A stretch of 64,000 nt of DNA from Astrocystis sublimbata. Taxonomy: Eukaryota > Ascomycota > Sordariomycetes > Xylariales > Xylariaceae. Position 1 is the stretch's first letter; each line of letters begins with the position of its first letter. Made by a program: the position numbers and the translations under genes. The DNA is taken from positions 124,001 to 188,000 of the forward strand of contig JAJNNY010000050.1 of NCBI GenBank assembly GCA_022453515.1, written 5' to 3'. Positions 35,937 through 64,000 of this stretch are shown piece by piece. Below the pieces are notes generated by a model. The model did not search any database. It was not told where the DNA came from and saw only the letters and a list, made by a program, of their open reading frames with translations.

Positions 35937-36886
35937 TGTTTCTTTAGCTAAATACACAAATGCCCCAGTCAATATTAGTCCAGAAGAAGAATTTCAATTC
36001 GAAAACCGAGGTGACGTGATCAATCTTCGGGATAATTACTGTCGGTGTTGATCGTGTTTCGCCCATTCATCTCCCAACGACCTTCGCCTTTTGAAACAAC
36101 TGTCATCATCCTCGGCATGGGCGGTGTGGATGTAATAGATAAGTATGTAGTATTCATGGTAGTTACTGTAACATAAGTGTGTTATCCTTAGGGTTTAGAA
36201 AATAGTTAGATGACTTTCAGTTAGTCATAGCTAGTCGACTTTCAGTTAGTCGATACCCACTGGTGTGGCTAGACTAACTAAATTACGTAATATTCTAGTT
36301 AGTCAATTGATCAAGGTGTTGACTAAACTAACTAAAATCAGAACCCTGGTTATTCCTTCCCATCACACTGACACGTCGCTTGGCAACCGAGGTGTTGCAG
36401 ACTAGCTTCTTGACTCTCGAAATCTCAGCCTCGTTCATCACCGCCATTAAGTTGCAAAGGATCAGTCTGTTGGTTCGGCCAGATGCAGCTGGCGTCCGTT
36501 TGAATTTTCTTCCCTTTGATCACATCGATGCAATACTCCTTTGACCGAAAAATGAAGATGCGATACCCATCCCGGTGGGCCACTTGCCTCCTTGCTTCTC
36601 CCCCTACAAACCCCTCGCACGTACATGACCTGCCTCCCTAGCTCAGTAAGGATATAGTGCACCCTTTCTAATTCTCTCTCCGGCTTGTAAACAGACACCA
36701 AGCACGGTTCCCCCCTTTACCTACAACTAAACCCCGTCACTAACTCAGAACTGTAGTCCCGCCCTCCCCAGATGCTGGCACATTGCTGTTGAACCAGGAG
36801 GTCCCTTGCCCGAGATTCCCACCACTTCGTAGCGCTGATTATCGCTTTCCGTCCCTCCGCCCAGCACGACAACAATATCATTCATC
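35937..36886. other. Intergenic between DUF3435 relic and ThDP enzyme gene
   Basis: Contains a MITE-like segment (listed separately) and, from about 36400, presumed promoter and pyrimidine-rich 5' UTR of the ThDP enzyme gene. No other gene seen. Confidence 0.45.
36190..36347. repeat. Possible MITE with AGGGTT termini
   Basis: The 158-bp segment starts AGGGTTTAGAAAATAGTTAG and ends with a sequence whose reverse complement starts AGGGTTCTGATTTTAGTTAG, so the two ends form an imperfect inverted repeat of about 20 bp. Inside, AGTTAGTC and its complement GACTAACT recur several times. No target-site duplication is clear. It sits directly after the recombinase relic. Confidence 0.35.
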
Positions 36887-39185
36887 ATGTCTCAGCAGAG
36901 TCTTCCGGGGTATGGATGCTCACGACAATCTTGCGGTTGCATGTGGCTAATCTCGTTAGATACACTACGGCGTTCGCCCTCTTTGAGGCGCTGTGGGAGG
37001 TATGTTTTGCTCCGCATGGTATCAGATCCTCTCTCCCTTGGCACTGGCTGACTAGGTACTTTATGGTAATACAGGCAGGAATTACTACCTGCTTTGTCAA
37101 TCTGGGGAATGATCACCCATCCATCATCGAAGCTATCGTCAAGGGCAAACGCGAGCGGCCTGATCGCTGGCCTCGCATGATTACTTGCCCATCTGAGGTA
37201 ACTGCCATATCGATGGCGGATGGGTATGCCCGAGTGACGGGGCGCCCGCAGGCCGTCATTGTGCATGTGGATGTTGGCACCCAGGCGCTCGGCCAAGGTG
37301 TCCATAACGCGTGCGTCGGCCGTGTGCCCATTTTCATCTTCTCCGGACTATGCCCGTCTACCGAGTCGGGGGAACTACCCGGCTCGCGCACAGAGTACGC
37401 CAACTGGCTGCAGGAGCCTCACGACCAAAAAGCCATCGTGCGGCAGTACTGTAGGTACGTGGGAGAGTTCCGTACCGGGCGGAATGTGAAGCAGACGATA
37501 TCCCGCGCGCTGCAGTTCGCCAACACGGCTCCAAAGGGCCCGGTTTACTTGGTTGCTACCCGGGAAGTCCTCGCAGAGGAATTGGAGCCATACTCTCTGC
37601 AACAGGAGCATTGGGGGCCTGTCGGCCCGGGGGCACTACCCTCGGAAGCTGCTTTCCAAGTGGCTTCTGCGCTGGTGAACGCAGAGCGGCCACTTATAAG
37701 TGAGTTCATCTTGCAGTCGTCTTCTTATTGTTCCAGTGGCTTGATTGGTGGATCTCTCATGCCCCGAGACCCCTGAGCCGAGACCCCTGGCTGAGAGCCT
37801 TGTCTTTACACTCAAGTAACAGAGGAGTGACTACTAACCCCATGCCTCATAGTCACTGGATATTCGGGTCGTGATTGGCGCAACCCTGGGGCCTTGGTTG
37901 CTCTTGCGGACTGTATCCCCGGAATACGTGTCCATGATACTGGCGGTAGTGACATGTGTTTCCCCATGACGCACATTGCCTCGGAAGGTTTCCGGCTCGC
38001 CAATCACAAATGCAGTACAGAGGCCGACGTGATACTCGTACTTGACTGCGACGTGCCTTGGATTCCAGTCTTGAACCCGCCATCTTCCGACAAGACCACC
38101 ATCTATCATATAGATAGCGACCCTCTCAATCAGCAGATATCTGTATCATTCTTCCCGGCGCACGGGCGCTGGAAAGCCGACAGCTTTACGGCAGTAAGCC
38201 AGTTGGTCGACGGTATCAAGAATAGCAAGCAGCTGTCTACGCTTCTACAAGACCCAAAATATGCGGCTCGCAGAGACGCTCGATCAAAAGTCCACAGCGC
38301 GACCCTGGCCGACATGACCACGCAGGTCCGCCACGGCGAGGGGGACTTTCTTAACGTGCATACCATTGGTCACATGTTGAAGACTCATCTGGCCGACTCC
38401 ACGTTTGTCGTCGAGGCCATAACTTCGGCGCAGACTCTGTCCGACCAACTGCAATGCAGCCGCCCGGGGAGCTGGATCAATTGTGGCGGCACCGGGATCG
38501 GGTGGAGCAACGGTGCGGCCCTCGGCGTGAGGATGGCACTGGCCGAACTTGCTCGAGATGGTGGTTCCAGTCCCCGCTTGGTTTGCCAGCTCGTGGGTGA
38601 CGGCAGTTTCATGTGTGCTGCCCCGTCGACGGCCCTGTGGGTAGCAAGCAAATACAAGATACCCATCCTAACCATCGTGTTGAATAATGGAGGTATGTCA
38701 AGTATTGCCCTTCCTTGTTCTCAAGTCCCCCCTTCCCCTCTTTCATGAATACTTGACCGGGACTGAGGCCGCGAGAATCGCGTCTCAAAGCTTCCAGACT
38801 TCTCAACTTGTTTTCATTGCTGTGAATCAGTTGTCGGGTTATATACCTACCTAATTTCTATACTGACTCATCTCTCCCAAATCAAGGCTGGCATGCTCCT
38901 CGCGACTCTGCTAGAATCGTCTACCCCAACGGGTTGAATGCCTCTGCCACTGACGAAGAAGCCAATACGTCGCTGAAGCCCACTCCCAACTATGCCGCCT
39001 TGGCCGAGGCGGCCTCTGGATCCGAGGTTGGGTGGAACAACGGATCGTCCGAGGATGACTATGCGGATCGATGGATGAAGGGCGTAAGGGTCAAAACGGT
39101 GGGCCAACTCAAAGAGGCACTTCAACTAGCCAATACCCGGGTTGCCCAGGAGGGTAGAGGGATGTTGATCGAGGCATTTATGTGA
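36887..39185 (+). CDS. Thiamine-diphosphate-dependent enzyme, acetolactate-synthase-like
   Basis: Five exons: 36887-36909, 36960-36999, 37075-37699, 37853-38692 and 38887-39185; 1827 nt, 608 residues. The N-terminal pyrimidine-binding domain begins YTTAFALFEALWEAGI and has the catalytic Glu in TCPSEVTAISMADGYAR. The C-terminal PP domain has the ThDP-Mg motif GDGSFMCAAP continuing through about 25 residues to IVLNNGGW, as expected. The fold covers acetolactate synthase, benzoylformate decarboxylase and oxalyl-CoA decarboxylase. The length and lack of a mitochondrial presequence differ from the housekeeping acetolactate synthase, so this is likely a paralogue that decarboxylates or couples 2-oxo acids. 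Start chosen because it gives a phase-correct 23-nt first exon. It may belong to the metabolite cluster to the right, but that is not shown. Confidence 0.88.
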
Positions 39186-44628: not shown

Positions 44629-45843
44629 CTAAAAGTCCACTGTGGTAATATCCGGTGTCTCCAGAACTCCTGCTACAAGCACCTTCTCTCGAATAGCTGG
44701 GAATTTGCAAATCGAGATCTCACGATCCTGGGTATAACGAGAGCTGATATGCCTTAGAAGAGCGCCAAAAGTTCCAGGCCTGCAATCGTCGCCAAGGTGT
44801 TCCGGCTTATCCCACAAGTCGGCGAGCGTAGGGATATCGTGGTCTCGCCAATGGTACAGCTTTAGCATGGCTGTGCTTGAGAGTAGGGTGTCGAAAAAGT
44901 TGCGAGCATCTTGGTAGCGCTCACTATCTTGGTCCCTGTCGTACCTCGTCAGGAAGAACTCGGCCTGTTTGGGCCCGTTATCGTTGGTCAACATGGCCGC
45001 CGAGGCGAACTCCTTGTATTCGATGAGCATGACGCGATGCTTGCAGTAGAGCGGCCCACTGAAGCCGTCTGACGGGTCTTCGAGCAGCCGGATCCTATCG
45101 TAGGCCAGATAGCCCTGGAAATAGTCCAGCTTGTCCCCGTCGGCACCCTGGAATACATGCGAGAAGTTCCCATCGCGAACGAGATGTCGAAATAGGGGAT
45201 GGGCGTGGATGCCCTTGTTATTGATTCTCCCCGTCCAAGCCTCCAGGAGGACCAGCATCCAGCGCTTGATGAAGCCGTTATCCCGCCGACCAGCGATGAA
45301 GAAGTTCTCCGCCACGCCTGACTTCAGTGTTGGGTCAGCCGAAGCAACCGCTACCTCAAATTTGGATTTAGGATCTCGGAGTTTGGCCCAGCAAACTTGT
45401 TCCAGATGCATCAACAGGATGATGCCAACATCCATCCACACGCCACCATGCTGATATACCAGTGGCAGGCGAACGGTATCAGAAGTGTTGGAGCCGGCGA
45501 ACTGGCCTGTAGTCCTTCCGTCCCTGAGATGCTTCGGAATATACTCGTCGTCGACGAAGTTGAAGAGGTAGGCAGGAGACTCGCGATTGAGGTCTAGGAC
45601 GCGGACAGTCCAATCGGGACCTAATAGCCTCACCCAGTTGGCAACATTGGACTTCTGCCACGGGGGCATAGTGTGTACCCCTTTATCCCAAAACGCCCAG
45701 ACATTCTTCTCGGAAGTCACTGGAGGAGAGAGGTGAATGCTGTGGATGATCTCTTCGTCCGACCTCTCATCCAGATTTGGAAGAGCGCGTAGTTTGAGGT
45801 GAGTCAGGTCTGGGAAGCCGAATGCAGCTTCGGAGTTCTCCAT
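44629..45843 (-). CDS. Glycosyltransferase, capsular-polysaccharide-synthesis type
   Basis: Single exon, 404 residues from the ATG at 45843. An upstream in-frame GTG at 45918 is not taken as the start. The protein opens with a polar region, then RSDEEIIHSIHLSPPVTSEK, NVWAFWDKGVHTMPPWQ and VANWVRLLGPDWTVRVLD, followed by SDTVRLPLVYQHGGVWMDVG, in which the Asp after GGVW is the DxD-like donor-binding site. This matches fungal proteins of the Caps_synth glycosyltransferase family (GT32-like fold). No signal peptide or membrane anchor is visible, which suits a soluble enzyme acting on a small molecule more than Golgi glycosylation. It lies at the left edge of the NRPS and sugar-nucleotide block and is the only glycosyltransferase in the window, so it is the best candidate to use the UDP-sugar made there. 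Confidence 0.85.
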   Translation of the reverse strand: MENSEAAFGFPDLTHLKLRALPNLDERSDEEIIHSIHLSPPVTSEKNVWAFWDKGVHTMPPWQKSNVANWVRLLGPDWTVRVLDLNRESPAYLFNFVDDEYIPKHLRDGRTTGQFAGSNTSDTVRLPLVYQHGGVWMDVGIILLMHLEQVCWAKLRDPKSKFEVAVASADPTLKSGVAENFFIAGRRDNGFIKRWMLVLLEAWTGRINNKGIHAHPLFRHLVRDGNFSHVFQGADGDKLDYFQGYLAYDRIRLLEDPSDGFSGPLYCKHRVMLIEYKEFASAAMLTNDNGPKQAEFFLTRYDRDQDSERYQDARNFFDTLLSSTAMLKLYHWRDHDIPTLADLWDKPEHLGDDCRPGTFGALLRHISSRYTQDREISICKFPAIREKVLVAGVLETPDITTVDF

Positions 45844-47068
45844 TGTACGCTGTGTTGAGCTGGCTTGCCACGATATGGAATTTTCCCCTTTACCATGGCT
45901 TGCTTGTTCGCTTCCCACTCAATCTAGTCCATGAGGCTTTCCATGGCTATCTAAGGTAGGGGCAAGCAAATCCACATCAAAGCTTGCAGTGTCCAATTAC
46001 GTAAATTGGCTGGTAGCAGATATATCACGTAAAAAGTAGGGACTTGCTCATCGATTTATGACAACATTTGTCGACCAGCTCGTTGCATGTCGTACGTGAA
46101 TTCGTAGCCGCATGACATATTACATAATTACACGTAATAGAACCTGAACTTTAGAAGAGCGTGCATCTCGCGGGGCAAGCTCCGGGGGTTGACAGCTGTC
46201 AGGTAAGCACTAAGATGCCCCCGGAACCTGTTCTCCCATCCGCGCCGCATAGCACGTGCGTGAAATGCATGCATGACACATGTAGGTAGGGGTAGGGGTA
46301 TCTGGACTTATTACCTAATCAGGTAATCGTAATGGATTGGTTACATAATACCATCGCAGCGTGCCCTCGCAATCTACGTATATGCTCTTTTATCACCCAC
46401 CCCCTTGTACAGGTTGTCGAGGGTTGTTGAAGTAGAATTGGTCGGCTAAAATAGCCCGCGGCTCGAGGCCCCATTTATTTACAGCGTTTTAATTGGACTA
46501 AAGTCCTGCATAATTAGCTAATGGTTTCCAGAAGATTTCGAGAATTCATAGCACCTGCATAGACCCCTGCGCATAGCAGTTACAGTAATAGGGGGTAGTA
46601 ACGGCTAGCGTAGCTGCATCTGCCCTACGAGTAATAGTAGTGTGGTAGTGCGACGGGCCGTCCGTGCTACATATATGCCGCATTTGGATTCTATATCCCG
46701 TTTCGGGGGCTTAGCGCAATAGGGATTGCGGCCACTATGCCTAAAACGTAATACCCGTAACACTGACCCTATGCCGTGATATCTACCTACCTTATATTAG
46801 GCATTTTTACAACGAAGACTGTTGCAAACAAAAAGGAGTCAAAACCACCATGAATCAATGCTTTTCTACTTAGTTACTTAACTATGAATCTTATCATAGC
46901 AGTCCCATGCTTGTAGCTAGGAGGACGCCTTCATCGCCTTATTGATAAACGTCCTTTTGTAAACCATGAACCGTGAGCATGGGCACGAACTAATGCGACT
47001 GATGGCCAGAAGACTCATTTACAATCACAGTCGAACTATCCTACCAAGTCAGTTTGAGCCCGGATCAT
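45844..47068. other. Intergenic, upstream of glycosyltransferase
   Basis: Presumed promoter of the minus-strand glycosyltransferase (right-hand flank of that gene) and 3' flank of the bZIP gene. Rich in TACGTAATTAC-type motifs near 45996-46136. No gene seen. Confidence 0.5.
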
Positions 47069-48683
47069 TTAATCTTTCTTTTCATCTTGGTTGCTGTCTA
47101 ACGTGTAACGTCTGCTCCTATGTGCGCGCTGTCGGGTGTTCACCCAGCTGACAATATCCTGTAGTACCTTATCCTTCGTGGAAGTTATCAACTGCATTGT
47201 TGACAACAGGAGCTGTACTCTCTCAGCTCTTAATGTCTCCGAAGCGTCCGCTGATAGTATCGCTATGAACGATTGGAGGGTAGGTACCTATAAACTCATT
47301 AGTTCAAAAATGAACTTGTAGACATTCGACATTGCTATTTTTCGCAGAATCACGCAAAAGGTAGGAAAGCTCTGATTAATTACCTCATCTCGTAAAGTAA
47401 GCCTCAGGTCAGCGGCTATGTCTTCCAGTGAATTCATGAGACCTGCTCCAACGCTGCTCGGCCTCGCCAAGTTCGGGTTGCGCTGCATATTTTGCCAGAT
47501 TTGTATTTCACTACTGTATCTCTTTTTCGAAAGTCCGTTCAGCTCGCTCTGTAACAGATTCGCGGCTGATCTGACAATGGCGTATCGATATCGGCTGCAC
47601 TCCCACGGTGACCAAGAACGCGACTTCACACTCAGGTCGTCGATTAAGGCTGGAAGTCCCTGAAGCCGACTTGTTTCTTGTGCGGATCTAGCCGCCGATG
47701 ACTCGGCAAATGAGCTCGTATAGTAGGATAGGAAAAAGGAATCCACACTGTTAAACCCGGCGTCGTGTATATGTTCTAATATGCGACCAACTCGCTCATG
47801 CACATCTTGCACCTCTTTTTGGCGCTGAGGTGCCGGATCAGTAGTGGAGGCGCTTGCCACCCTGCTCGCACTTCTGGGAACGGGCCCGGGAGAATATGAT
47901 TCGTTAAAATTGGCCATCAAGCCTTGCCTGGAGACTTTAGCCGATGCCCCATTGATATCATGCCGTAATACATGTTGCAGGAACGACTCACTGGGTCTGG
48001 GTGCTTGATAGCAAGGTACTAGATGAATCGGCAATACTTGGGTCCACATCGAAACCACTATCATGGAAGTTCCCATCATGTCCAAAGAAGAATGCTTCGA
48101 TGCCTCCAAAAAGTTATTATCAGATCCTTTGGCTTGTTTCGGCTTGTCCGAAAAAACTTACCGGTGTAGAGATTAGACTCGTCTGTGCCACCTGGACTGG
48201 TGCCAGCAAGCGCGGGGTCAAGCATCTCTGTATAGTTCTGTCGATTGCGATTGGGTGATTGGTCGGGGTGGGCGGGTGTGGCCAAAGGATTTGCCAGCAT
48301 GTTCCCCGATGTTGTGTCCATTCGGACCGGGCTGGCGAGGTGTTGTTGCATTTGCGCCTCCCGCATGTTTCCGGGAGTATTTATAGCTATGGGAGCGGCT
48401 GAGGACTCTTTGGGGCTCACAATGTCTTGGGTGTGTGTCGTTCCTGTTGTTGAGAGGGTGTGTACTGCAGAACTATTATTAGTGTCGCTAGCAGTTTGTC
48501 TGAGCTCAGCGACCCCTGCTCGCTTTTCCAAGTCCTCAATGTGCAACTTGAGTCTTTTCCCTGGATGAAACGGCTTAGCGATATTATGGCTCGGGACAGA
48601 ACGGTATGAGTGAGGGTTTACTCCGTACTATATTTTTGTTGGGCGATGCGGTTCTTTTCTCTTTTCTGTGCTTGTTCGTTCAT
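47069..48683 (-). CDS. bZIP transcription factor, fungal secondary-metabolism type
   Basis: Exons 48683-48629, 48560-48162, 48126-47384 and 47287-47069; 1416 nt, 471 residues. The basic region spans the first intron and reads EKNRIAQQKYRKRLKLHIED (about residues 8-27), with the N-x-A-Q-x-x-Y-x-x-R pattern of fungal bZIPs, followed by a short coil. The middle holds SSLDMMGTSMIVVSMWTQVL and SESFLQHVLRHDING, elements I know from cluster-linked fungal bZIP proteins, and the end has DIAADLRLTLRDE joining to VPTLQSFIAILSADA. The intron between exons 2 and 3 would be only 35 nt, so an alternative donor near 48190 is possible. Its position between the glycosyltransferase and MFS genes makes it the likely pathway regulator. 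Confidence 0.82.
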
Positions 48684-48950
48684 AATACTTTCTTCCTTTT
48701 CTTCCCCCTGCAAGCCGTTAGGAGGGGAAGACGAGAATCGGCGAGGCGGACCGCGGACGGATGAGAATAGCAGACTTTAAAGTCAACAGTGTGCTTACTC
48801 TGAGTCTCTGACTACATGCTACTATACTCGAGGTCTTTCGAGGGGCTCTCTAGGTATATGATGCTTTTATGCCTCGGGTCTGATGCTGGAGCTGGCGCTT
48901 GTGTCTTTGAAGTTTAGACCTGGGGCCACCTGTATACCCCCCAGTAATCT

Positions 48951-49043
48951 GGCACGATGAGTCTGAAATAAGTGTCTAGGTCCTTATGGATGTAGGACCT
49001 AGGTAGGCGTGAACCCGGACACTTATTTCAGACCTACCGTGAC
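48951..49043 (+). repeat. Foldback MITE-like element, copy A
   Basis: 93 bp with imperfect terminal inverted repeats: the left end GGCACGATGAGTCTGAAATA pairs with the reverse complement of the right end GTCACGGTAGGTCTGAAATA, and pairing continues through AAGTGTC. The reverse complement of copy B (50423-50512) aligns end to end with it, with about ten substitutions and one 3-bp gap by eye. No coding capacity. Confidence 0.85.
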
Positions 49044-49709
49044 TGGCTACTCGTCCCACTTGCCAAGATGAGGGGATTCTAACTAGCTAATTAACTGCCG
49101 GAATCGCTCTAATACCCGAAAAAGCGGACTTATGCACCAAGCCCCAGCTTATTCGTGGCCAAAATTAAAGAGCTGAACTTTATGTACTGTTTTTATTAGG
49201 TATATCGCCTCAGTTGAAGATTGTTACTTGCGTATAAAAGTTGCCAAGCTACTAAATTTGTATTAGATCGATTCCGGCAGTAGGGTTTAATCCAAGATAT
49301 GGATACCTTATCTAATCTCGCTTATTGAAAACTAAACTCCTTTAAGCTGAATCCCCAGATTTTGGGCTCGAACATCACGAACATAACGGAAAGTGGGCCA
49401 TAATCCAGATTTGCTACTTTGTACTAAGTACCTACCTGAAATGAAAGTATTTGTCTACTCCACGGGTCTTGAGGTTCTCTTCCAAACGGGATTGCTATTA
49501 CTCTAAGTCTTATATGCCTTATAATCACCAATAATTTCAACCGTATAACGTGGCGATCCAGTGCCTGCCAGGATGATAGCTCTGAGGGCACGTTGACGAT
49601 GGGAGCTAGCGATGTAGTGGATGGACTGCGAGATCTTCAATAACATCTCCGGAGCTTGCGGAGTACTCTGGGGTGTGGGGCAGGCGCCTAGAACCAAGCA
49701 TGCGGGTGG

Positions 49710-49947
49710 GGTGCAGGACTAAGTGTCCGGGTTCCCATACACGCCCTTAAACCTACCTTTGTTACTACTCAATAATTCAACGTATAGTTATTATTATATT
49801 ATCAAAACAAGACACAAGATAGATAAGTACTGTAGGGTACTCTAGCTTCAATTTTTGATCTTTTAATCGCAGAGTTGAGGTAATTATACATCTTCTTTGC
49901 TAGCAAAGTAGGTGTAGACGGGTGTGGACCTGGACACATAATGCTGC
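49710..49947. repeat. Divergent relative of the foldback element
   Basis: Left arm GCAGGACTAAGTGTCCGGGT (from 49713) and right arm, read in reverse complement, GCAGCATTATGTGTCCAGGT, match at about 16 of 20 positions. The core AGTGTCCGGGTTC is shared with copies A and B. The interior of about 190 bp is A+T-rich and unlike the short copies. Confidence 0.5.
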
Positions 49948-49999
49948 ACCCGCGGGCCAAGCTCGCCAAGTGGGCACACGTAGGTAAACAATGGGGCGC

Positions 50000-50060
50000 A
50001 TGTGGCACAGGCGGCCCCCTCGTGGCACAGGCGGGGCGGTCCCCTCGTGGCACAGACGCC
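50000..50060. repeat. Short imperfect GC-rich tandem repeat
   Basis: Three imperfect units built on CGTGGCACAGGCGG, spaced about 20-25 bp, the last with CAGACG. No function evident. Confidence 0.7.
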
Positions 50061-50422
50061 GGCCACCTCCGACGTACATACGGACTCGCGGAGTAACAGG
50101 TCACCTGATGGTAATGCATGTGACCATTGTACAGGAAAGGGGCGCCTCGTATGCATGGGGTACCGAGGAATAACCCTAGCCCTTCGGTTCATCGGTCCGT
50201 ACCTAGCCCGCCTAAGTAATCTCTAGACAAAGTACTTAGGTAATACCTGAGTAACATAACATAGCTTATCCACCAATCGGCCATCAGCTGTGCCCGTAAT
50301 ATCCAGAGCCAGGGGTAGCACATGCCCCTTGCCGGCCTACCTACCTGATACCATATACTTAGTCATCCTCTTTATTCAACTGGTTTCATACCTCGCTCAC
50401 CCCTTAGCACGAACACAACCTA

Positions 50423-50512
50423 GGCACGGTGGGTCTGTAATCAGTGTCCGGGTTCACGCCTACCTACCTACACCCATAAGGACCCGGACACGTATCTCAG
50501 ACCCATCGTGCC
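50423..50512 (-). repeat. Foldback MITE-like element, copy B (inverted relative to A)
   Basis: 90 bp with about 31-bp imperfect terminal inverted repeats: left end GGCACGGTGGGTCTGTAATC, right end read in reverse complement GGCACGATGGGTCTGAGATA, continuing through GTGTCCGGGT. It ends about 70 bp upstream of the MFS start codon and could form part of that gene's promoter or 5' UTR. Confidence 0.85.
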
Positions 50513-50583
50513 AGATCTACCTCCAACTGTAGCTCACTCGGCAACAAGGCAACTCCCGTCAAATACCACACACCCTACATGGA

Positions 50584-52224
50584 ATGGAGCAGCTGGATGT
50601 GCAAGAGGCGACCACACCGCCCGAGACTGTGTACCCCCGAGGCTTCAGGCTGCGGATGACCGTCATATCGCTCTGTATCGTGTCGTTCTTGTTCGGTCTC
50701 GACTTGACCATCGTTGCTGCAGCGGTTCCGAGTCTCACCGATTACTTCAAATCGGTCAAGGACATTGGGTGGTACTCATCAGCCTACTTACTTTCTCTAG
50801 CTGCCCTCGGCCTCTTCTACGGAAAGCTTTACACCCTGTTCTCTGTGAAGAAATTATACCTCATCAGCATCTTCATCTTTGAGGCAGGGTCTTTACTTTG
50901 CACGCTGGCTCCGTCTTCAACCGCATTTATTCTGGGTCGCGTCGTTGCCGGAGTAGGTGCTGCTGGAATCCCGCCAGGGTCCCAAGTCATTCTTTCGCAG
51001 TGCTTCCCCAAGCACCGCCGTCCCCTCTGGACGACATTGGTCAGTTCGTGTCAGCTGATCGGCATCGTGAGCGCGCCAATCATCGGGGGTGCCTTGATTG
51101 ACTGGGTCGGATGGCAGGGCTGTTTCGGCATCAACCTGCCCCTCGGAGCGGCTGCTTTCCTGATAATTACCCTGGGACTTCAGGTGAACAACGACTCAAC
51201 TTCCAACGATGACTCCGACTGGAGAAAGAAGTTGAGGCAATTCGACTGGATCGGAACGGTCCTGCTCATCTCGGGACTGGTCTCGCTCCTGCTGGCGTTG
51301 CAGTTGGGCGGCTCCTATGGCTGGCGTGATAGCCGTATTATTGTCCTCCTCGTGGTAGCTCCTTTGCTGCTAGCGGCATTCGGGTGGCTCCAATACCGCT
51401 TGCAAGACAATGCTACGTTGCCCCCGCGCGTATTATCCATGCGGACTGTTCTAGCCGCTGCCTGGTTTGGCTTGTGTGTTGATGCAACACTGGCCGTGAC
51501 GGAGTATTTCATCTCGATCTATTTCCAAGGCGTCAAAGGCTACACGGCCACACGATCAGGTCTGCTCATACTCCCTCTATTGGCCGGCATCATTATCGGA
51601 AACGCAATAGGAGGGCTGGGCACAACATGGCTAGGATACTACAACCGTGAGTCAATGATCCAAGACTAACCCGAGCCATCCAGTGCCAGTATCTTCTATC
51701 TCTCCCACATTTGCTAACAGACCTAAGCATTCATGCTTGCAACTACGGTTCTGGCACCAATAGCATCAGGTCTGCTTACGACCATCAGCTTGGACGAAAG
51801 CATTAGAAAAGCGGTGGGACTTCTTGGCTTCCTCGGGTTGGCGGCGGGTCTTGGACTTGGAAGCCCCATCATCGCCATACAGACCATTGTAAAGCAATCT
51901 GATCTTTCTGTCGCCATCTCCATCACCGCCTTTGCAGCTACTCTAGGAAACTCAGTGTGGATTGCCGTATCTACGACCCTGTTCCAGAGTCGGCTGAGTG
52001 CCGAGTTGGCAAGTTTGAGCACCGTGGTCAATGTCACGCAGATCGAGAATGCTGGCATCTCTGAGATACGTAACCTAGTCGGCGGTGATCGCCTGAGAGA
52101 CGTCTTGCTAGGCTACGACGAAGCTGTTACACAGACTCTCTATGTTCCTGTCGGACTAGCCGTAGCCGCCGTCCTGGGATCGGCCTTCACAGAGTGGCAC
52201 TCAGTGAAGAAAAAGGAGTCATGA
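50584..52224 (+). CDS. MFS drug:H+ antiporter-like transporter
   Basis: Two exons, 50584-51646 and 51728-52224 (phase 1); 1560 nt, 519 residues, with a segment pattern fitting the 14-helix DHA2 family. Visible helices include LRMTVISLCIVSFLFGLDLT, YLLSLAALGLFYGKLYTLF and LYLISIFIFEAGSLLCTLAP. The motif-C-like GVGAAGIPPGSQVILSQCFP and the loop GWRDSR fit toxin and drug exporters of fungal metabolite clusters. The second exon starts PFMLATTVLAPIASGLLTTI. It is expected in the plasma membrane, exporting a small molecule by proton antiport. Divergent from the bZIP gene and convergent with the UDP-glucose dehydrogenase gene 241 bp away. Likely exporter of the cluster product (inference). Confidence 0.92.
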
Positions 52225-52465
52225 GCTTTAATAAGAAGTATAGGAGATAAAACATACCTAAACTAGAGACATTGATTTGCTAGCCATGTTGCTGGGAAAC
52301 CTGTGTATTACGCCGTGTCGGAATTCGATAGTAATGCATAATTAAGGCATTGCTTGAACCTCATGGGATAATATTCATGTCTCTTGTCTCTACTGAAGTC
52401 GCCAAACTTCTTGACCAATAAATTCTGAGCACTATTGACATCATAACATAAATTTCATCTGCCAT

Positions 52466-54205
52466 CTAAGAGAGCCTTTGAGTCCCAATTATCTCTGTCA
52501 GAAATCCCATCTCCTCAAGCATAACACGGTCCATTGTTTGCGTACTACCAAGCACGACCTTGGGGTGCTCCATGGCCGTTGCCAGACGACTCCAATCCAC
52601 GTATTCCGTCAACAATGCTTCACCTGTGCTCTGACCATCTCTCTCGGAGGACGAGATGTCCAACTTCGACTGGGACTGATACCCGACAGTGCTCTGTCGC
52701 GAGCTAGGTAGGAGAAAGAGAAGCCCGCGAATCAATTTCTTCAGCTGAACAACGAAAGAACTGGGTGATGGAGTCCGAACATTGGACATTTCACCGTTCA
52801 CCAAAGTCTCGGTCGACTCTTGGACCCTGTCGCGAGGGTTCACTGTGAACATATCCCAATCTGTTGTGACCAGGACAGCACACGCTCTCTCGCATGCCTC
52901 TTCGGCCGACTTGCAAATCTTCACTGTCGTCGGACCTGGATCCCCTTCTCCATCGTCGCCAATGCCCAAGTCATGCCGGATGCGGTTGGCTGTGACCCAT
53001 GGGTCGTATATGGTGATGAGTGCGCCTGCCTTGGCAAACCCTTTGATCAGGTCTATAGCACAGCTCTCTCGAGTGTCCGCCGTGTTCTTCTTGAAAGCGA
53101 CACCCAAGAACGCTATTCTCTTCCCTCTGATATCGCCACCGAGAAGCGACGTTACTCGTGGTATGGTCCTTGTCTTCTGCACCTCGTTCATGACCAAGAT
53201 GCTCTTCCAATACAATGCAACCTCTGGCATGTGAAGAGATTCGCAAAGATAGACCAGACTTCGAATGTCTTTCGAGAAACACGATCCACCAAAGCCAAAG
53301 GACGACTGCAACATATGTGGCCCGATCCGAGAGTCGCTCCCGACCGCTTTGGCTATCTGGTCGATGTCGGCACCTGTTGCCTCACATATGACACTGAGCG
53401 CATTGATGCTCGAGACCCTTTGTGCGAGGAGAGCGTTGGCCGCTAGTTTCGATAGCTCCGACGAGAACAAGTTGGAGAAGACGATGCGCGACCGCGGGAC
53501 CCATGTTGCATACACACTCGCAAGAGCTTCGGCTGCGAGGATGCCAGATGGCTCTTCCAAAGACCCAATGATGACGCGGTCCGGGAACAGCAGATCGTGC
53601 ACCGCAGTGCCCTCGGCGAGGAACTCTGGATTGGAAAGAACTTCAAACTGGACCCCATCACACCCGTCGCGATGCAGTATCTCGCGAATGCGCCGGCTGG
53701 TTCCAATTGGAACGGTGCTCTTATCTACGACAATCTTGTTGTTGGTTGAAACACGAGCTATTGATTTGGCGATGGCTTCGACGCCCGCCGTCTCGAGCAA
53801 GGATCCCGCCCCTTCGCCGCTTGATTTCGTTGGTGTGTCGACAGCTATGAAGATTATGTCGGCGTCTCGAACGCTATTGTCTAGATCGGTCGTGAAGCTG
53901 AGATTTCTGACCTTGTTTGGCCGCAACCCGTCTCTGGGAACCTGGAGGACGTCCAATAAGTCGGGTTCGGAGATGGGCAGCTCATTAGATTGCCAGGCGG
54001 TTATTCGATCGATGTCTCGATCAACCACCGTTACATATATGTGCGGACATCGATTTGCTATGACGGTCGCTGTTGGGCCGCCCTGAGCCATGTCAGCTTG
54101 TATTGCGCAGTCACTATTACTCACGGCTTAGGAGGAGCCTCTTACCACGAATCCACCACCGATGCAACAGATCTTGGTGATCTTTGGCAAGCGATACTTC
54201 TCCAT
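52466..54205 (-). CDS. UGD1: UDP-glucose 6-dehydrogenase
   Basis: Two exons, 54205-54146 and 54082-52466; 1677 nt, 558 residues. The small first exon supplies the start of the NAD-binding fold, KICCIGGGFVGGPTATVIAN across the junction. Further motifs: VTVVDRDIDRI at the end of strand 2, VDKSTVPIGTSRRIREIL, VLSNPEFLAEGTAVHDLLFP, ELSKLAANALLAQRVSSINA and the catalytic Cys in SSFGFGGSCFSKDIRSLVYL, then FLGVAFKKNTADTRES. All are hallmarks of UGDH, which oxidises UDP-glucose twice with 2 NAD to UDP-glucuronate. The C-terminal third has an insertion of about 80 residues before VVLGSTQTMDRV. The gene is divergent from the UDP-glucuronate decarboxylase gene, so substrate and product chain directly. 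A dedicated copy beside an NRPS is unusual. Confidence 0.94.
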
Positions 54206-55055
54206 CTCGGGACTGACGAGTGGTATGGTGGGAATGTGGAAAAGATTGCCGGTCGACTAATCAGGTAATTACTGCAAGTCCTCGTTAGAATTAATATCCA
54301 ATAATACGCCTCTGATCTTTAATTTAAATCTCTACCATTGTTATCAGATACATCCTTCAGTTACTAATATTTAGCATGCATGCCTCTAGGTTGAGTGCAT
54401 GTTGTAAAGGTTGATGATTATCGAATCACGGCTGCTAACCCTGCAGCCCGGGCTTGACCAAGCTATAACACGTTATCTAGGTAGGTACTGCTATCTTACG
54501 TTATTTTTGGTCTATGCAGTCATATGTGATGACACATATCTCATTGTTGCCTATTGTATCATGACTATACAATTGAATTAATTTTATATTATATTATTTG
54601 AAATAATGTGATTAAAATAAAGTATAAGTATTTATACGAAACTAACAAGGAAAGTTATTATTTGGTTAATTTCTCAACCAAATCGATAGATGCGTTATAT
54701 GCTATAAGTTAGCTAGAGATTCACTTCGTGCATAGTGTGTTAGGCAGTGGTGCGAGCAGCGCTATTACAAGGGTGGCTAAATCAGGGTCTCACGCATTGT
54801 TGGGTTGTAGTCTAGCGTGACCCAGAAGAGCTTCAAATAGAAATTGACTAAACACTTCTTTCCGAACGACATTGGGCCCTAGTTAGAAAGTGTACCTACC
54901 TACCCAGCTACCTAAGGGATTATTCGACAGAGCGTTTGAGTCGACTTGAATAAGATTCAGAGCACATTCGTGCGTTATGTACACAGCTTCTCTTTGAGTT
55001 CTTGAGAGAAGTTACCGTACACGAGAAGTCAGTCTACAAGGCATCGAAGTTCAAG
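54206..55055. promoter_or_regulatory. Shared divergent promoter of the UDP-sugar genes
   Basis: 850 bp with no gene, separating the start codons of the two UDP-sugar genes. Positions 54560-54670 are strongly A+T-rich. A GTACCTACCTACCCAGCTACC pyrimidine-type patch lies near 54891. The arrangement suggests joint control; no specific operator could be identified. Confidence 0.5.
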
Positions 55056-56191
55056 ATGTGTACTATTGTAACAGGGGTAAGCCTTCGTGCTCTGTAATCT
55101 CTTTGCTAATCAACTAACAATATTCCAGGGGGCTGGGTTTATTGGCTGTCACTTAGTAGACAATCTTCTGACAGCAGGAAAACGAGTTGTCGTTATAGAC
55201 TCGCTGTGGACAGGGTCGAGTAAGAACACCGAGAGGTTTGAACATGATCCAAATTTTCGATTCATTAAGTGAGTGGTCACAGATACTCTTATAAGATGTC
55301 CATTTCTCTGACTCCAAGCTAGACAAGACGTTCGGGAACAGCTGCCAGCTATCGACGATGTCCTAGAGATCTATCATCTGGCTTGTCCCGCTAGTCCGGA
55401 TTACTTCGACTCTCACTCAGTGGAGATTCTGGAGACGTGCTTCGTTGGCGCTAAGAACGTGCTCGATTTCGCCGTCACCAATAAAGCAAAGGTTCTCATT
55501 GCCAGTACATCAGGTAGGCTCAGTCCGTCACAACAAAGATCGAGCAACACGGCCTTGACACGAAAGATTGCCCAGCTGACGGTGTGACGCAGAGATATAC
55601 GGCGACCCTAAAGTTGTCCCCCAGCCTGAGGACTACTGGGGCAACACGAACTCTTTTGGCCCACGGTCTTGCTACGACGAAGGAAAGCGTATCACCGAGG
55701 CTCTTGCGTATTCCTACCAGAAAAGACACAACCTCGAAGTTCGAGTCGCACGGATATTCAATGCATACGGTCCTCGAATGCAGGCTCGAGACGGCCGTGC
55801 GGTCCCCAACTTCATCACAGCGGCAATCCAAGGTCAACCCCTGACGATCTATGGCGATGGAAGCGCCACCCGATCGTTTCAGTTCGTGTCCGACTGTGTT
55901 CTGGGGTTGGTTCAATTGATGCAGAGTGACTACCCCAAGCCTGTCAACATCGGGAGCGATCAAGAGACGAGAATAGATGAGATCGCCTCTAGGATCAAAA
56001 CACTAGTTGCAGACAAGATGGGTGTGGTTTCCACATCACCCATCAACCTTGTACCTGCTAGAATTGACGATCCTTACAGGCGCAAGCCAGATATCAGTGT
56101 AGCGAAGGAGATGCTCAAGTGGGAGCCAACGGTATCCCTGAACGACGGACTAGAGGCTACAGTACAATGGTTTCTCGAGAACCGAGATTAG
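55056..56191 (+). CDS. UXS1: UDP-glucuronate decarboxylase (UDP-xylose synthase)
   Basis: Four exons: 55056-55076 (7 codons), 55129-55268, 55323-55513 and 55593-56191; 951 nt, 316 residues. The extended-SDR NAD motif TGGAGFIGCHLVDNLL is formed across the first intron. The HLACPASPDYF segment is characteristic of UDP-glucuronate decarboxylases. IASTSEIYGDP carries the catalytic Ser/Thr and SCYDEGKRITEALAY the YxxxK pair. RIFNAYGPRM, GDGSATRSFQFVSD and INLVPARIDDPYRRKPDIS complete the family set. It converts UDP-glucuronate to UDP-xylose with enzyme-bound NAD. At 316 residues it lacks the N-terminal Golgi anchor of animal and plant enzymes, so it should be cytosolic. Alternative: a closely related UDP-glucuronate-using SDR with another product. 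Confidence 0.92.
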
Positions 56192-57437
56192 TGCGGCGCC
56201 GTATACCATCAAAAGCCTTTGTCTACACAGAGTGTTACGTGAATGTGTTTTTTTAACAGACGACTATCAAAAGTGGAATAGGTCAACTTATAAAATCATG
56301 CGATGTTTCGTACAAACACGGATTTTATACAATGTATCTTAGTATAGCAACTGCAAACTCAAATGAGCTACGTCGCCTGCCTGCTTGACTTATTACTACT
56401 ACTCAACCATTCTCTAGATCACTTGTAGTCCCCCAGTGACAAATATTCGGCGTGACAATATCCATCACACACCCTAATTATAACAATTCACGGCTGGTTC
56501 AGGTCCAGAGAATTCGACAGAGCCATACGCTATCTACTGCTTCGTACAACTACAGTGAAGGAATAGGGAGGGCAGTTGTTGTAGGTGCCCCTGCATTCAC
56601 TACTGTTGTACTAGGCCCCCCATGTACTTAGTGCTTATATAGCCCACTTCGGCTGGCTTGGCCAGAGCCACCTTTTCTCTCTCTCACACACACATATACA
56701 GAATAATACAGCTTATTCTGCCTTTGACCCTGCAAGAGCAGTATACTGTTGGCCAAACCCCAAAGTATCTCATCTGCTCGGAGCTTGGGAAGTCATTACG
56801 TGACCGCGGTTAGGGATTACCTTATATGTACACAACCCTGAGAGAGAGACACTAGTGAACTCCACAACATGCTCTTACGTACCTACCTGACTACCTACAT
56901 CTGCAGGCCTGCATAGATTATTGACGAGTACGTAACAAGACTAGAAACATACAAAGCCTACTGCGTTGAGATTTCCAGTTTTCGATAACGTTATTCAATG
57001 ATTCGATTATTACTGACTTGCACTACAGGAACAGGCTTTCACGTGAACATTCTCGTCCTTTTCGTTCCCTATTACTCATCGCTACCGTTCATCAGATCTC
57101 ATTATTCATGTCAGTTGATTGGCTGTACGAGATGGGAATTCTTGACCATCACACCGCACTTTTCGCCTGGGCAGACAGAACACCCTGCGACTTCGATCAT
57201 AACGTATCAATTGAATACTTTTAATGGCTTAGACACTTGCCCCTCTTTTATGTGCTAAAAATACATTGCGAGCGTTTTCGGTATCTCTGAATGTTCTGCT
57301 CATCATGGAGTAATAGTATCGCATTTCAGCCAATGCAGTAGACACAACACGGCCATAGCAAAACATATAGGCAACTGCCATTGCTTAGATAGATACCACC
57401 AATACTGATACTACTCCCAAATGCTCGGTGCCTTCCT
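56192..57437. other. Intergenic, upstream of NRPS
   Basis: 1.25 kb with no gene. Presumed 3' UTR of the UXS gene and promoter of the NRPS. Contains a short CTCTCTCTCACACACACATATA stretch near 56677. Open frames at 57000-57260 look like chance. Confidence 0.5.
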
Positions 57438-60400
57438 ATGCTCTTAGCACGCTCAACCATGGTTGAAAGAAAGACTATGTTCTCCATGCAGTTCGATTCG
57501 CTGCCAATGGGAGACAGTGCTGTCAGTATCGACCCCAAGACCTTCGCTGAGACAGTCTGGGCGATCGTATACTTCACATACACCGACCGGGATGAAACAC
57601 AGTTTGTGCGACATTACCGACGCAGTTCTCGAGGCCTTCAGAACGGAGCTCAACAAGTTTTTGAGAGCGCTCTGAAATCTTACCATGTCGAACTGGAGTA
57701 TACGCCTAGCCACATTGCTGAGAGGGGACACGAGACTTCTCTGGGACCCCTTGATACTGCTGACCAGCTCATCAATGATCATTTTGAATCCAACTTCCAG
57801 CAACTCTTGAGCAAGGTTCAGATCGTCATCACTGAGGGTGACGACGATGGCTGCAAACTCCCAGACAGCTCTGGTTCCCAAGACATGGTATGATTACGTC
57901 TGATGTTCCTCCCCTATTCCAGCTTGGCCCATGTTACATGGCATTGACCCAAACGCGTAGACATCCCCGTGTTTAGCCATCTCGATCAAGCCAGGCTCTA
58001 TCACCTGGTCGCTTGGCGCAGATGAGAGCCCTTTGAGCGCCCATGCAGCCAATCTGGTAGACACTCTAGCTCAAGTCTCTGAAATGGTGAGACAGCAGTG
58101 GACGACGCCACTCGACCAAATGAACTTTCTGGGTCCTAAAAACTGGGATTTGATTTCGACCGTTGCTCCCACGCCTTGTGAAGTTGGAAATTTCGTCCTG
58201 GGCGACATATTAACAAGACAGAGTCAAGCGCTAGGCACGAAAATTGCCGTCGACGCTTGGGATGGGAGTTTCACTTATGCTGAGCTATACGATCATGCTG
58301 TTCGCATGGCGGCCGTGTTGATCGCAAAGGGCGTGCAGCCAGATGACAGAATCGGCCTGTGCATGGAAAAGAGCAAATGGGCCGTGGTAGCCATTTGGTC
58401 GATCCTGCTCGCAAGTTGCACCGTCGTTCCCGTAGACATACGAAACCCAGCTAAGAGGGTAGAAACTCTGCTCTCGGCGACGGGCGCGCGCTTCGTCATT
58501 GTCGACACTTCTCCTGCAGCAACACTGGTGGCTGGGGCTCAGGCAACACCCTTGATATGCCACACCGAAACATTCGAACAAGTCGACCAAGCACGGGCTG
58601 CCCTCACATTGCCCAAGGCGACTCCAACCAGTGTAGCATTCATTGTTTTCACTTCCGGCACAACCGGCCTTGCTAAAGGTGTGGTTATCGAGCATGGTCC
58701 ACTATACACTGCCATCACCCAGCATGCGACGGTTATGTATTTGAACGCGTCGTCCAAGACATTTCAGTATGCCTCTTTTGCTTTTGATGCGAGCATAGAG
58801 GATATTTTCTCCACCATGTTTGTTGGCGGCTGCGTTTACCTTCCAAGCGAAACGGAAAAACTGGATAACCTGCCCAAGGCCCTTCGAGACAGCGAAGCCA
58901 CGCGCGTCTGTCTCACCAACACCGTTATGTCACAAGTCCAGCCTCGGGATGTTCCCAAACTCGAGGTGATGATCAACATCGGCGAGCTGTTATCCCGGGA
59001 AAACTTTCTTCGCTGGTCTCCTCACGTGAAAATGGTTTCTGCCTATGGGCCTACAGAATGCACTATATACGACAGTTTCGCTACATCCTCCCATCTTTCA
59101 TCGGATTACCGGAGCATTGGCGTTAGCAAAGGTCTGTGTCTCTGGATCACGGACCCTTCGGACCCGGAACACGTCAAACCCGTCGGAGCTACTGGTGAAA
59201 TCATCATTGAAGGACCCCTCCTCGCCCGCGGCTACTTGGAGGACCCGAATCTCACTGCCCAAAAGTTCATAGCCGCTCCGTCCTGGCTTCAACGGTTCAG
59301 AGGCAAAGGGCCGGATCATCGCTGCTACAGGTCTAGAGATCTAGGAATCCTCAATGCGGATGGCACTGTTACCTATATCGGGAGGGCAGACAACCAAGTC
59401 AAGATTGGAGGACAAAGAGTGGAACTCGGCGATATAGAGCACAACTTGCACATGGTGGAGCCTGGCCTTGGAAAAGTCGCTGTTGAGCTGATGAAACTGC
59501 CTGGCCGTGGGGAAGCCCTTGTGTTGACAGCTTTTATTCTGCAAACCTCCCAACCTCCTTCCTCCGAGAGCAACATGGGCGTTGTACCCCTTAGCGGCGA
59601 ATCGAGAAACCTGATCATGGCTGCCCGGTCGAAGCTGCTACAAGTCTTACCCCGGTACATGGTGCCGGCCATGTTTATCACCATATCCAACATCCCCCAT
59701 GCACAGGTGGGCAAGCGTGACCGCAAGATGCTTCGCGACTGGGTAGCGTCTTTGACAGCGGAGCAGATAGCCCACTACCAAGTGAGAGACGCTCTTGCGT
59801 ACGAGGCCCCCAAATCCCAAGACGAGGCCGTGTTGCAGAAGCTGTGGGCCCAGCTGTTTCAAGCGCTGCCCATGGCCTTCGGCGCAAACGACAACTTCTT
59901 TGAAGTTGGGGGAGATTCAGTTAAAGCTATCGAGCTCGTTGCACTGTTGCGAGGGATCGGGAAAAGGTTGACGGTTTCTGACGTTTTCCGCCACCCGGAA
60001 ATGAACGAGATGGCTCTGCAGCTGGTCGACATGCAGGACGACGACGACGACAAGGTTCAAAGGCCTCTTCGGCCATTTCAACTCTTACCGGCTAACCTGG
60101 ACGTCGAGAGATGTATCGAAATGGCTGCTCGTTCCTGCGAAACGCCCCCTTCGGCTGTGGAGGACATATATCCGGCTGCACCAATGCAGGAGGCATTGAT
60201 GGCAATCTCTGCGTCTGCGAGGCGATCCGACACGTATTCGCACAGGGTAGTCTTTAAACTCCCGCCGTCGTTGCATGTTCCCAGGTTTCGACAGGCCTGG
60301 GACACTTTGATTGCCGGGCAAGCCGTTTTACGCACAAGACTTGCCGTTTTGGGAGACGTGGGAACGGCACAAGTTGTCTTGTCATCGGAGGAAACCTGGA

Positions 60401-63400
60401 GCGCAGCCACAACGCTCCGCGACTTTGAGGAGTACGACAAGAGTAATCCCTTCACATACGGGGCGCCGTTGAATCGCTTTGCGATAGTCGGTGATGGCGA
60501 TACAGACGCTCAGTATTTTGCCTGGAGCAGCCATCACGCCGTGGCCGATGGTTGGTCTCGCCCAGCCATGCTGCAGGATGTTAGGTCCATCTACGACACA
60601 GGATGCCTGCCGCGACAAACACCTTGGTAAGTGTTACTGCGCCTTGGCAAGTTCGGAATTATTCACTCGATAACATGGCTAACATATCATACAGTATGTA
60701 AAAAAGGACATTTCTTAGTTCAAGTCAGCCCACCTTCTTGTCAGTGGATTGGCAGCTAACGTTGTAGCAGACACCGGGTTCATACAACATATCAAATCTA
60801 TAGATCTCTCTGAGTCCGAGGATTTCTGGAGAGACAAGTTCCCTGACCCTGTCGAGACGTTTCCCCATCTGCCCACTGTCGATTACAAGCCCAACGTGGA
60901 GGGGCTGCAGTCCATCACGGTCAACCTTGATAGACGGGCAGAATCGAGTATAACGTGGGCTACGTTAATACAATCGGCGTGGGCTCTCGTTGTTTCCACA
61001 TACGGGAACACAGATGAGCCAACATTTGGCCTTACATTGTCCGGAAGGGATGCCTCGGTAACGGGAATCAGCCGGATGATGGGAATCACCATCGCGACAG
61101 TACCGGTCAAGGTAACGGTTGAGAAGACAAGCTCCATATCCGAGTACCTACATCATGTCCAGCAGGAAATGGCCGAGGTGAAACAACACCAGCATCTTGG
61201 TCTTCAACGCATCAGCATGCTGAGCCCGGAGACGCGGTCTGCGGTCGCATTCCAAAACCTCGTCGTCATTCAACCAGATAGCGAAGAGGAAGAGTATAGG
61301 GACTTGGTCGACATGGGTCTACAACTTGTGAAGACGGAAGAGCACGATACAGGTGACTATGCACTCACGACGCGATGTATACTGGATACAAGAGCGAATC
61401 GTGTTCGACTGGACGCCTATTTCGACAAAGCAGTCATCTCTAGCGAACAAGTGGAATGCCTGTTACACTTTTTTGGTCACATGGCGCAACAACTAGCGAC
61501 GGAATCAGAACATCGCTCCCTCCATGATCTGGACAAGATGTCGCCACATGATCTCGACCTTCTAGGCGAGAGAAACTCTGCGATACCCCCCGCCATCGAA
61601 CAGACGTTACATGGAATGTTCGGCGAACGAGCTCGGCAGACTCCAACAGCCGTGGCAGTCGACGGCTTTGACGGGACCATGACATATGCCGAGCTCGACC
61701 GCGTGTCAGACATGCTAGCCGACTACATGGTCCAGACTACACACCTAAAGACCGAGGCTCGCGTGTTACTGTCTTTCCGGAAATCAACGTTGCCCATTGT
61801 CTCTATGCTGGCAATACTAAAAGCCGGTGGTATATGCTCCTCGACCAATCCAGAGCATCCGACTCTCCGACTTGTGGAGATGATCGAGGATATCCGCCCT
61901 GATGTAATCATGTGCGACCAAGATTCCCTCAGCCGCTTTGAAAGCCATGCCCCTCATGTGATTGGAGTGACCCGGGAATTCCTCTCCGAGCTCACTACTT
62001 CTCCGCCAGGCAAGGAGCGGGTCCGTCCAGTTGTAGTTCCGAGCAATGGAGCATTCATTGTGCAGACGTCAGGGAGCACTGGACGGCCGAAAGGGTCCAT
62101 CCTGGAGCATCGATCCTTAGCTACCGGCCTTGTCTCCGTCTGCCGCGAGATACGACTAGACCAACGAGCAAGAACCTTGCAATTCTCTGCGTATACATTC
62201 GATTGCCACATACTCGAGATCTTCGGCACCCTTCTCCACGGCGGATGCGTGTGCGTTGTGTCGGACGATGAGCGCATGGATTGCCTCGCAGATGTGATGA
62301 ATGAGCGCCGTGTCAACACCGCCGTTCTTACCAAGACGGTTTCACGCTTGCTAGACCCGGAGACGCTGCCCCTTTTGAAGACACTAGTATTGACCGGTGA
62401 GGCAAACGGCAGGCAAGACTACGAGCGCTGGGCCAAGCGGGTAGCCTTGTTCAACGGATTGGGCCCTTCGGAGTGTAATCCGCTGGTCTGCCTTACTCGC
62501 GAGCCGGTAAGCCAGGACAGCGATCCGTTGAACATCGGCCATGCCCTGGGCTGCCACCTATGGGTTACCGACCATCGCAGACCAGATCGTCTCGTGCCCG
62601 TCGGTTGCGTTGGAGAATTGACTGTGGAAGGTCCGTATGTGGGCAGAGGGTATATCAACAGGCCACAGCAAACAGCAGCGGCATTCATCCAAGACCCGTT
62701 GTGGTCCCGTGATGGATCTGGACGAAGCCGGAGATTTTATCGCTCGGGAGATCTTGCCAGGATGAATCCCGACGGCAGCATCTCCTATATCGGCCGCGCC
62801 GATGGGCAGGTCAAGATTGCCGGCCAGCGCGTCGAGCTGGGAGAGATTGAAGATCAGCTTCGTCAATGCGATGCGGCATTCGTGACCAGTGTAGTCGAGG
62901 CGGTCAAGGTCTCGGCGCGCGGCGGCGCCACGGCATTGGTCGTCTTCTATAGCGAGACCGGTAGAGGGCGGACCGAGTCGCACGAGGCCTCACACAATAC
63001 CGCCGTCTCCGTCTTGCCCATGGACGAGCAGAAAGAAGAAATGTTCAGAGAAGCACAGCTGAAACTCGGGGCACGACTTCCACGCTTCATGGTCCCGGCG
63101 ATATTCCTACCCATCAGCTACCTGCCCTATAATGCATCCGGAAAGGTCGAGCGGAGGAGACTTGCCAGCCTATTCGCCACCATACCTTCAGCGAACCTTG
63201 GGCAGTATTACCTCGATAGCAAGTCCGAAATAGCTCCGCCGACAAGCGAGCCAGAGGAACAGCTGCAGGAGCTGTGGGCGGCAGTTTTGCAGGTACCGCC
63301 AACTACTATCGGCCGCGAAGACAACTTTTTCCAGCTTGGCGGCGATTCCGTCCTTGCCATGAAGCTCGTTGCGAATGCACGGCTACAAGGATCGTCTATT

Positions 63401-64000
63401 ACGGTCGCCGATGTCTTCAGGCTTCCCAAGCTCTCGGACATGGCAACAGTTCTAGCCATGTCAGGGGTACCACGACACCGCCAGGGGCACACCACCACCA
63501 CCGGTGCTCTACGCCCATTCGCGTTGCTCGAGGACAAGAAAGTTGATCGCAGTTCGTGTATCAGGGAGTCGGCGCAAGATTGCGAGGTGGATGGGGACAT
63601 GGTTGAAGACATGTACCCTTGTACAGCCATGCAAGAAGCACTGGTCGCCGTGTCGTCTCACCGACCCGAAGCCTACATGTACCACATCGCCATGAGACTA
63701 CCGCCCAGCACGGAACTGGGGCATTTCAAATCTACCTGGGACACCCTCGTCGGCGCGAATCCCATCTATCGAACGCGCATTGTTTTCCGACCCGGGCTGG
63801 GGTCTTTGCAGGTCGTCCTGCGGTCTCCCATCCAGTGGCGAACGGTAACGGGGGTTTCGCTAGAGCAACACTTGCAGCAAGAGCCGCCTCTGCGAGTCGA
63901 ATACGGCAGCAGTCTTTCCAGGTTCACCATTCTCCACCACGGAGACGACACGTTCTTTGTCGGAACATTCCACCACGCGCTCTATGACGGATGGTCGCTG
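57438..64000 (+). CDS. Nonribosomal peptide synthetase, partial (3' end beyond window)
   Basis: Exons 57438-57887 and 57961-60626, then a final long frame from 60771 to the window edge; over 2100 residues. Order: an N-terminal segment (about 1-205) resembling the C-terminal half of a condensation domain without HHxxxDG; A1 (about 215-770) with FTSGTTGLAKGVVIEH, FAFDASIEDIF, SAYGPTECT and NQVKIGGQRVELGDIE; T1 with FFEVGGDSVKAIEL (Ser arm site near 800); C1 (about 880-1300) with HHAVADG; A2 (about 1315-1840) with QTSGSTGRPKGSILEH, YTFDCHILEIF, GLGPSECN and SGKVERRRL; T2 with FFQLGGDSVLAMKL; C2 with HHALYDG, cut by the edge. Both A domains keep the Asp that binds the amino group. The C1 join at 60627-60770 needs an 11-nt microexon or similar; direct splicing breaks frame. 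It assembles a peptide of at least two residues on cytosolic multidomain modules. Confidence 0.93.

Follow-up and report, generated by a model that had tools for sequence, protein, structure and literature searches.

We analysed a window of 64,000 nucleotides from the 42.6 Mb genome of the ascomycete Astrocystis sublimbata, corresponding to positions 124001-188000 of contig C136 (282,089 bases; C136:124001-188000). In its right-hand part a nonribosomal peptide synthetase (NRPS) gene adjoins genes for a glycosyltransferase (GT), a bZIP-like regulator, an exporter of the major facilitator superfamily (MFS), a UDP-glucose 6-dehydrogenase (UGDH) and a UDP-glucuronate decarboxylase, or UDP-xylose synthase (UXS). 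A preliminary description had recognised these six genes side by side and read them as a cluster for a glycosylated, probably xylosylated, peptide; family scores and matches to solved structures confirmed the gene set, the bZIP assignment being likely but not certain. Its statement that no unrelated gene lies inside the set also held, since the other open reading frames of at least 120 residues either overlap genes of the set or resemble nothing recognised (family models were not run on those frames).

The two enzymes of the sugar-nucleotide pathway are encoded head to head, in divergent orientation, with about 850 bases between them. The UXS gene (55056-56191, plus strand; exons 55056-55076, 55129-55268, 55323-55513 and 55593-56191) scores 322 bits against solved UXS1 (4gll/2b69), the next kind of enzyme reaching 114 bits, and its motifs TGGAGFIG, STSEIYGDP and CYDEGKR align with those of the solved enzyme; we take them to represent the GxxGxxG nucleotide-binding motif and the TSE and YxxxK elements of the active site. 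No NCBIfam equivalog model reached its cut-off for this protein, whose translation is 100% identical to F4808DRAFT_437581 of A. sublimbata. That its product would be UDP-xylose follows from what is known of the family. UGDH (52466-54205, minus strand; exons 54146-54205 and 52466-54082) has all three UGDH Pfam domains over their cut-offs (PF03721, PF00984 and PF03720) and scores 437 bits against the best solved UGDH, with which its FGGSCFSKD motif, presumably that of the catalytic cysteine, aligns. Among the relatives listed for it is CalS8, which we take to be the dehydrogenase of the calicheamicin UDP-pentose pathway. An extra C-terminal stretch of UGDH was set aside as a special feature, because another copy in the genome, on contig C150, is also long there.

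The GT gene (44629-45843, minus strand) is a single exon encoding 404 residues, and matches PF05704 (Caps_synth) with 49.9 bits (cut-off 24.5). Its GGxWxDxG motif is conserved, D138 and G140 being invariant across 43 aligned proteins. The predicted structure adopts a GT-A fold; the structure search returned matches at the level of the fold only (9-17% identity), including many bacterial glycosylating toxins and fungal Och1, and these support the fold and do not fix the donor. We propose that this protein would be the peptide xylosyltransferase, with UDP-xylose as its presumed donor. The regulator gene (47288-48683, minus strand, exon borders approximate) encodes the basic region NRIAQQKYRKR; a hand-spliced model starting near 48683 scored 21.5 bits with PF07716 (cut-off 22.3) and 20.6 bits with PF00170 (cut-off 27.6), so that a bZIP regulator is likely but not certain. 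The exporter (50584-52224, plus strand, two exons) is DHA2-like, and its first exon matches PF07690 with 119 bits.

The NRPS gene starts at 57459 on the plus strand, runs through the end of the window (57459-64000) and continues to the window-equivalent position 73040 (C136:197040), for a total of 5069 residues. A database protein of this length aligns with 57459-73040 as four main pieces of 98.7-100% identity, and 9 kb of the gene lie beyond the window; in the first exon no Pfam match was found. From Pfam matches and motifs, the order of adenylation (A), thiolation (T) and condensation (C) domains is A-T-C-A-T-C-A-T-C-A-T followed by two condensation-type domains, with four A and four T domains. 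The last two domains carry the motifs HHLVMDIVS and SHAQDDGFS, from which we read them as a probable epimerase and a probable fungal terminal release or cyclising domain; none of the 25 best NCBIfam matches for the NRPS names either.

Substrate pockets of the A domains were read by alignment to positions of GrsA, as we assume them to be and including D235 as the amino-binding Asp, in 20 NRPSs, in which not every A domain was caught. The A2 pocket is D-C-L-V-V-T-G-P-L in A. sublimbata and D-A-L-L-I-S-G-P-L in eight relatives, the A4 pocket is D-A-C-M-V-G-Y-N-S in five relatives, and the A1 and A3 pockets differ among relatives. The Asp of D235 is kept in A1-A3 of A. sublimbata. Concerning the domain plan, T3 and the following condensation motif are separated by about 670 residues in five relatives (P0243, P0244, P0247, P0248 and P0249) and by about 235 in A. 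sublimbata, and the roughly 435 extra residues are perhaps an additional domain. Such variation in the pockets and after T3 suggests that these NRPSs make several related peptides and not a single product.

The end of the NRPS gene, near 73 kb, places the right border of the cluster beyond the window. The left border is not fixed; on that side lie a gene for a thiamine-pyrophosphate-dependent enzyme (36793-38748; closest NCBIfam model NF006203) and, from 40882, a class-III aminotransferase (PF00202). Amination of a keto-pentose by the latter was considered and dropped, because class III is not the usual type of sugar aminotransferase.

To the question of whether UGDH and UXS are the only copies of the genome, serving housekeeping, which the preliminary description had raised against its own reading, copy numbers gave a negative answer. 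A genome search with PF03721 found three UGDH loci: the window copy, C2:884714-885262 and C150:35112-36395 (in pieces). A protein search with UXS (all eight candidates scored) returned the window gene, a gene on contig C2, whose pieces have 47-63% identity, and one distant relative with 27%, from which we count two UXS loci; the assembly may be incomplete. The housekeeping explanation was therefore rejected. The C150 copy of UGDH, which is divergent, has no biosynthetic partner recognised within 10 kb (C150:30001-40000).

On contig C2 (region 873.5-891.7 kb) UGDH and UXS are likewise divergent, about 1.5 kb apart. One side of this pair is occupied by a P450-reductase gene (P450 with flavodoxin, FAD and NAD domains), the other by a transporter-like frame with no Pfam match, an MFS gene, a gene with a hemerythrin domain and a reducing polyketide synthase (PKS) gene with acyltransferase, dehydratase, ketoreductase and acyl carrier protein pieces. 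No ketosynthase was found by this PKS, either in a search with PF00109, which scored 130 of 161 candidates and whose nearest match is C2:846241-847086, more than 25 kb away, or in a motif scan of 40 kb; the PKS therefore appears truncated or built in an unusual way, and this locus may represent a cluster in decay. Contig C2 has no match to PF00201 (2 in the genome), PF05704 (7 in the genome) or PF04488, the only GT families searched there. The C2 UXS groups with proteins of Nemania, Xylaria, Hypoxylon and Biscogniauxia, in a clade different from that of the window UXS, so the two do not derive from a recent duplication.

We then considered whether relatives of these genes are linked in other genomes, using protein searches with UXS, GT and NRPS and taking contigs of equal length as the same contig. 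The comparison covered 120 of 120 GT rows, 118 of 120 NRPS rows (two being without contig) and 48 of 120 UXS rows; a further 72 UXS rows were compared by eye, with no extra match. Among the relatives listed, 11 of the 19 NRPSs with at least 43% identity, that of the window counted, lie on the same contig as a close GT or as a UXS, versus 0 of the remaining 99. Similarly, 11 of the 26 GTs with at least 56% identity share a contig with a listed NRPS or UXS (9 with NRPS, 5 with UXS) and none of the remaining 94 does. All three genes together occur, apart from the window, in FL1019 (GT and UXS tags 418898 and 418901, the NRPS being placed by equal length alone), PMI_506 (NRPS and UXS tags 532767 and 532778) and Aspergillus navahoensis (UXS and GT tags 249267 and 249269). 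NRPS and UXS are linked in Fusarium sarcochroum (FSARC_6933 and FSARC_6926), GT and UXS in Seiridium cardinale and Clonostachys solani. The bond between GT and NRPS looks wider than the bond with UXS. An absence of conserved linkage with the NRPS, which the preliminary description had named as a result that would speak against it, is not what we found. In the UXS tree, the seven linked rows (window included) all fall within one clade of 13 rows with moderate support (87/68), which rises to 96/88 for the 12 rows that remain without Aspergillus.

From these data, the explanation that we consider probable is that of an NRPS cluster with a dedicated pentose-donor supply, in which UDP-xylose is made, xylose is moved to the peptide and the glycoside is exported. 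The genes, their families and the linkage between NRPS, GT and UXS seen in some relatives are observed; donor, acceptor, order of the steps, regulation, export and product are what we infer. The NRPS would build a peptide of about four residues; UGDH would oxidise UDP-glucose, and UXS, transcribed divergently from it, would decarboxylate the resulting UDP-glucuronate to UDP-xylose, from which the PF05704 GT would transfer xylose to the peptide. Control of the gene set may lie with the bZIP-like protein and export of the glycoside with the MFS protein. A sugar-tagged peptide is probable because related fungi keep several of the cluster genes together, the same linkage points to the peptide as the acceptor of the GT, and xylose is favoured over glucuronate because UXS is kept. 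Copy number and linkage thus support the earlier reading of a glycosylated, probably xylosylated peptide, with the donor of the GT presumed.

It should be noted, however, that several points weigh against this explanation. Contigs were equated by their lengths in the linkage comparison, and the cuts in percent identity were set after viewing the lists, at visible gaps. Besides the window's, only three listed contigs carry all three genes, and six (Pyrenula, Paramyrothecium and four others) carry NRPS and GT but have no UXS among the rows listed; in the annotated Paramyrothecium, UXS lies on a contig of another length and belongs to another UXS clade. Such missing partners are weak evidence, because the comparison covers listed relatives only and fungal gene calls in metagenomes are often broken. 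Within the 13-row UXS clade, six rows (P0003, P0005, P0006, P0031, P0037 and P0045) are without demonstrated linkage, and on the whole UXS tree 5 changes of the label "linked" are required; shuffling gave a mean of 6.7, and in 9 of 500 shuffles no more than 5 were required. The A4 domain of A. sublimbata has Ala in place of the usual Asp, which is present in A4 of 9 of the 10 relatives compared, FL1019 included (Cadophora is the one without it), so that the NRPS enzyme may be altered. Finally, the second UXS lies beside a PKS gene by which no ketosynthase was found, which weakens it as support.

The alternative that survives best, although we regard it as unlikely, is that the donor of the GT is UDP-glucuronate or some further compound and that UXS serves another step, such as release of a 4-keto-pentose or some other xylosylation, the peptide being a glucuronide or an ordinary glycoside. 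The six contigs with NRPS and GT and no listed UXS fit this possibility, as does the indifference of the GT fold matches to the donor, and some UXS-like enzymes do release a 4-keto-pentose (PMC10338323). However, UXS is kept beside GT or NRPS in the seven linked rows of one clade, which is hard to explain with glucuronate only. Somewhat less probable still, xylosylation could be a form for self-protection or transport: an inactive glycoside would be exported by the MFS protein and cleaved outside, and the active peptide would be unglycosylated. The presence of GT, exporter and donor supply in one cluster agrees with this, and nothing specific speaks against it, a xylosidase gene not having been searched for. 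That the neighbourhood is due to chance, or that UGDH and UXS are a general donor supply for glycans of the cell surface, as two UXS loci that may also feed other xylosylation could suggest, is very improbable; chance was rejected, given that distantly related fungi show the linkage for close NRPSs (11 of the 19 listed, window included) and not for the remaining ones (0 of 99).

Taking the cluster with its own pentose-donor supply together with the second UGDH/UXS pair, we tentatively propose a broader reading, to which we give somewhat less than an even chance. There would be a wide ascomycete family of NRPS clusters for xylosylated peptides, in which the pockets of modules 1 and 3 vary between species and the sugar-attaching module is kept; in A. 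sublimbata, UDP-xylose would serve secondary metabolism alone, supplied by two divergent UGDH/UXS modules that differ in ancestry, the first serving the NRPS and the second lying by a reducing PKS now seemingly without ketosynthase. The locus raises the question of whether secondary metabolism is the main use of UDP-xylose in fungi of this kind. Pentose-bearing fungal peptides seem undescribed within the literature searchable here, and the set of NRPS, UXS and GT common to several fungi offers a target for mass spectrometry, in the form of a pair differing by +132 Da. The gene set could also help to establish which donor PF05704 glycosyltransferases use, and a UXS adjoining a core synthase could be a marker in genome mining for xylosylated fungal metabolites.

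Concerning known systems, the preliminary description knew of no described example, and this agrees with the open-licence PMC papers listed by our searches, among which, judged by titles and the starts of abstracts, no fungal NRPS cluster with UXS was found. The close GT relative P0141 (64% identical) is annotated FCK3, a likeness by annotation name only; FCK3 is given as a probable glycosyltransferase of the fungal cytokinin gene set and, differently from our GT, is listed among cytokinin genes and not in a peptide cluster (PMC9861600). Among fungi, the erinacine cluster with its xylosyltransferase EriJ resembles the present one in that a secondary metabolite is xylosylated from UDP-xylose, but its product is a basidiomycete diterpene (PMC10830979). 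Section 13 of the same review, on xylosyl products, contains no fungal xylosyl peptide and names as bacterial glycopeptides the aeruginosides, for which it mentions a cluster with an NRPS, the occidiofungins and the cepacidines; the organisms that make these three groups are cyanobacteria, Burkholderia and Pseudomonas. The nearest parallels for the donor supply are CalS9 of calicheamicin and EvdS6 of everninomicin, where a UDP-glucuronate decarboxylase is likewise encoded within a natural-product cluster for a pentose donor (PMC10338323). Those systems are bacterial and make enediyne or oligosaccharide products. We know of neither lying beside an NRPS. A fungal NRPS example therefore seems undescribed in the open-licence literature surveyed, while UDP-pentose supply borne by the cluster itself is already known in bacteria.
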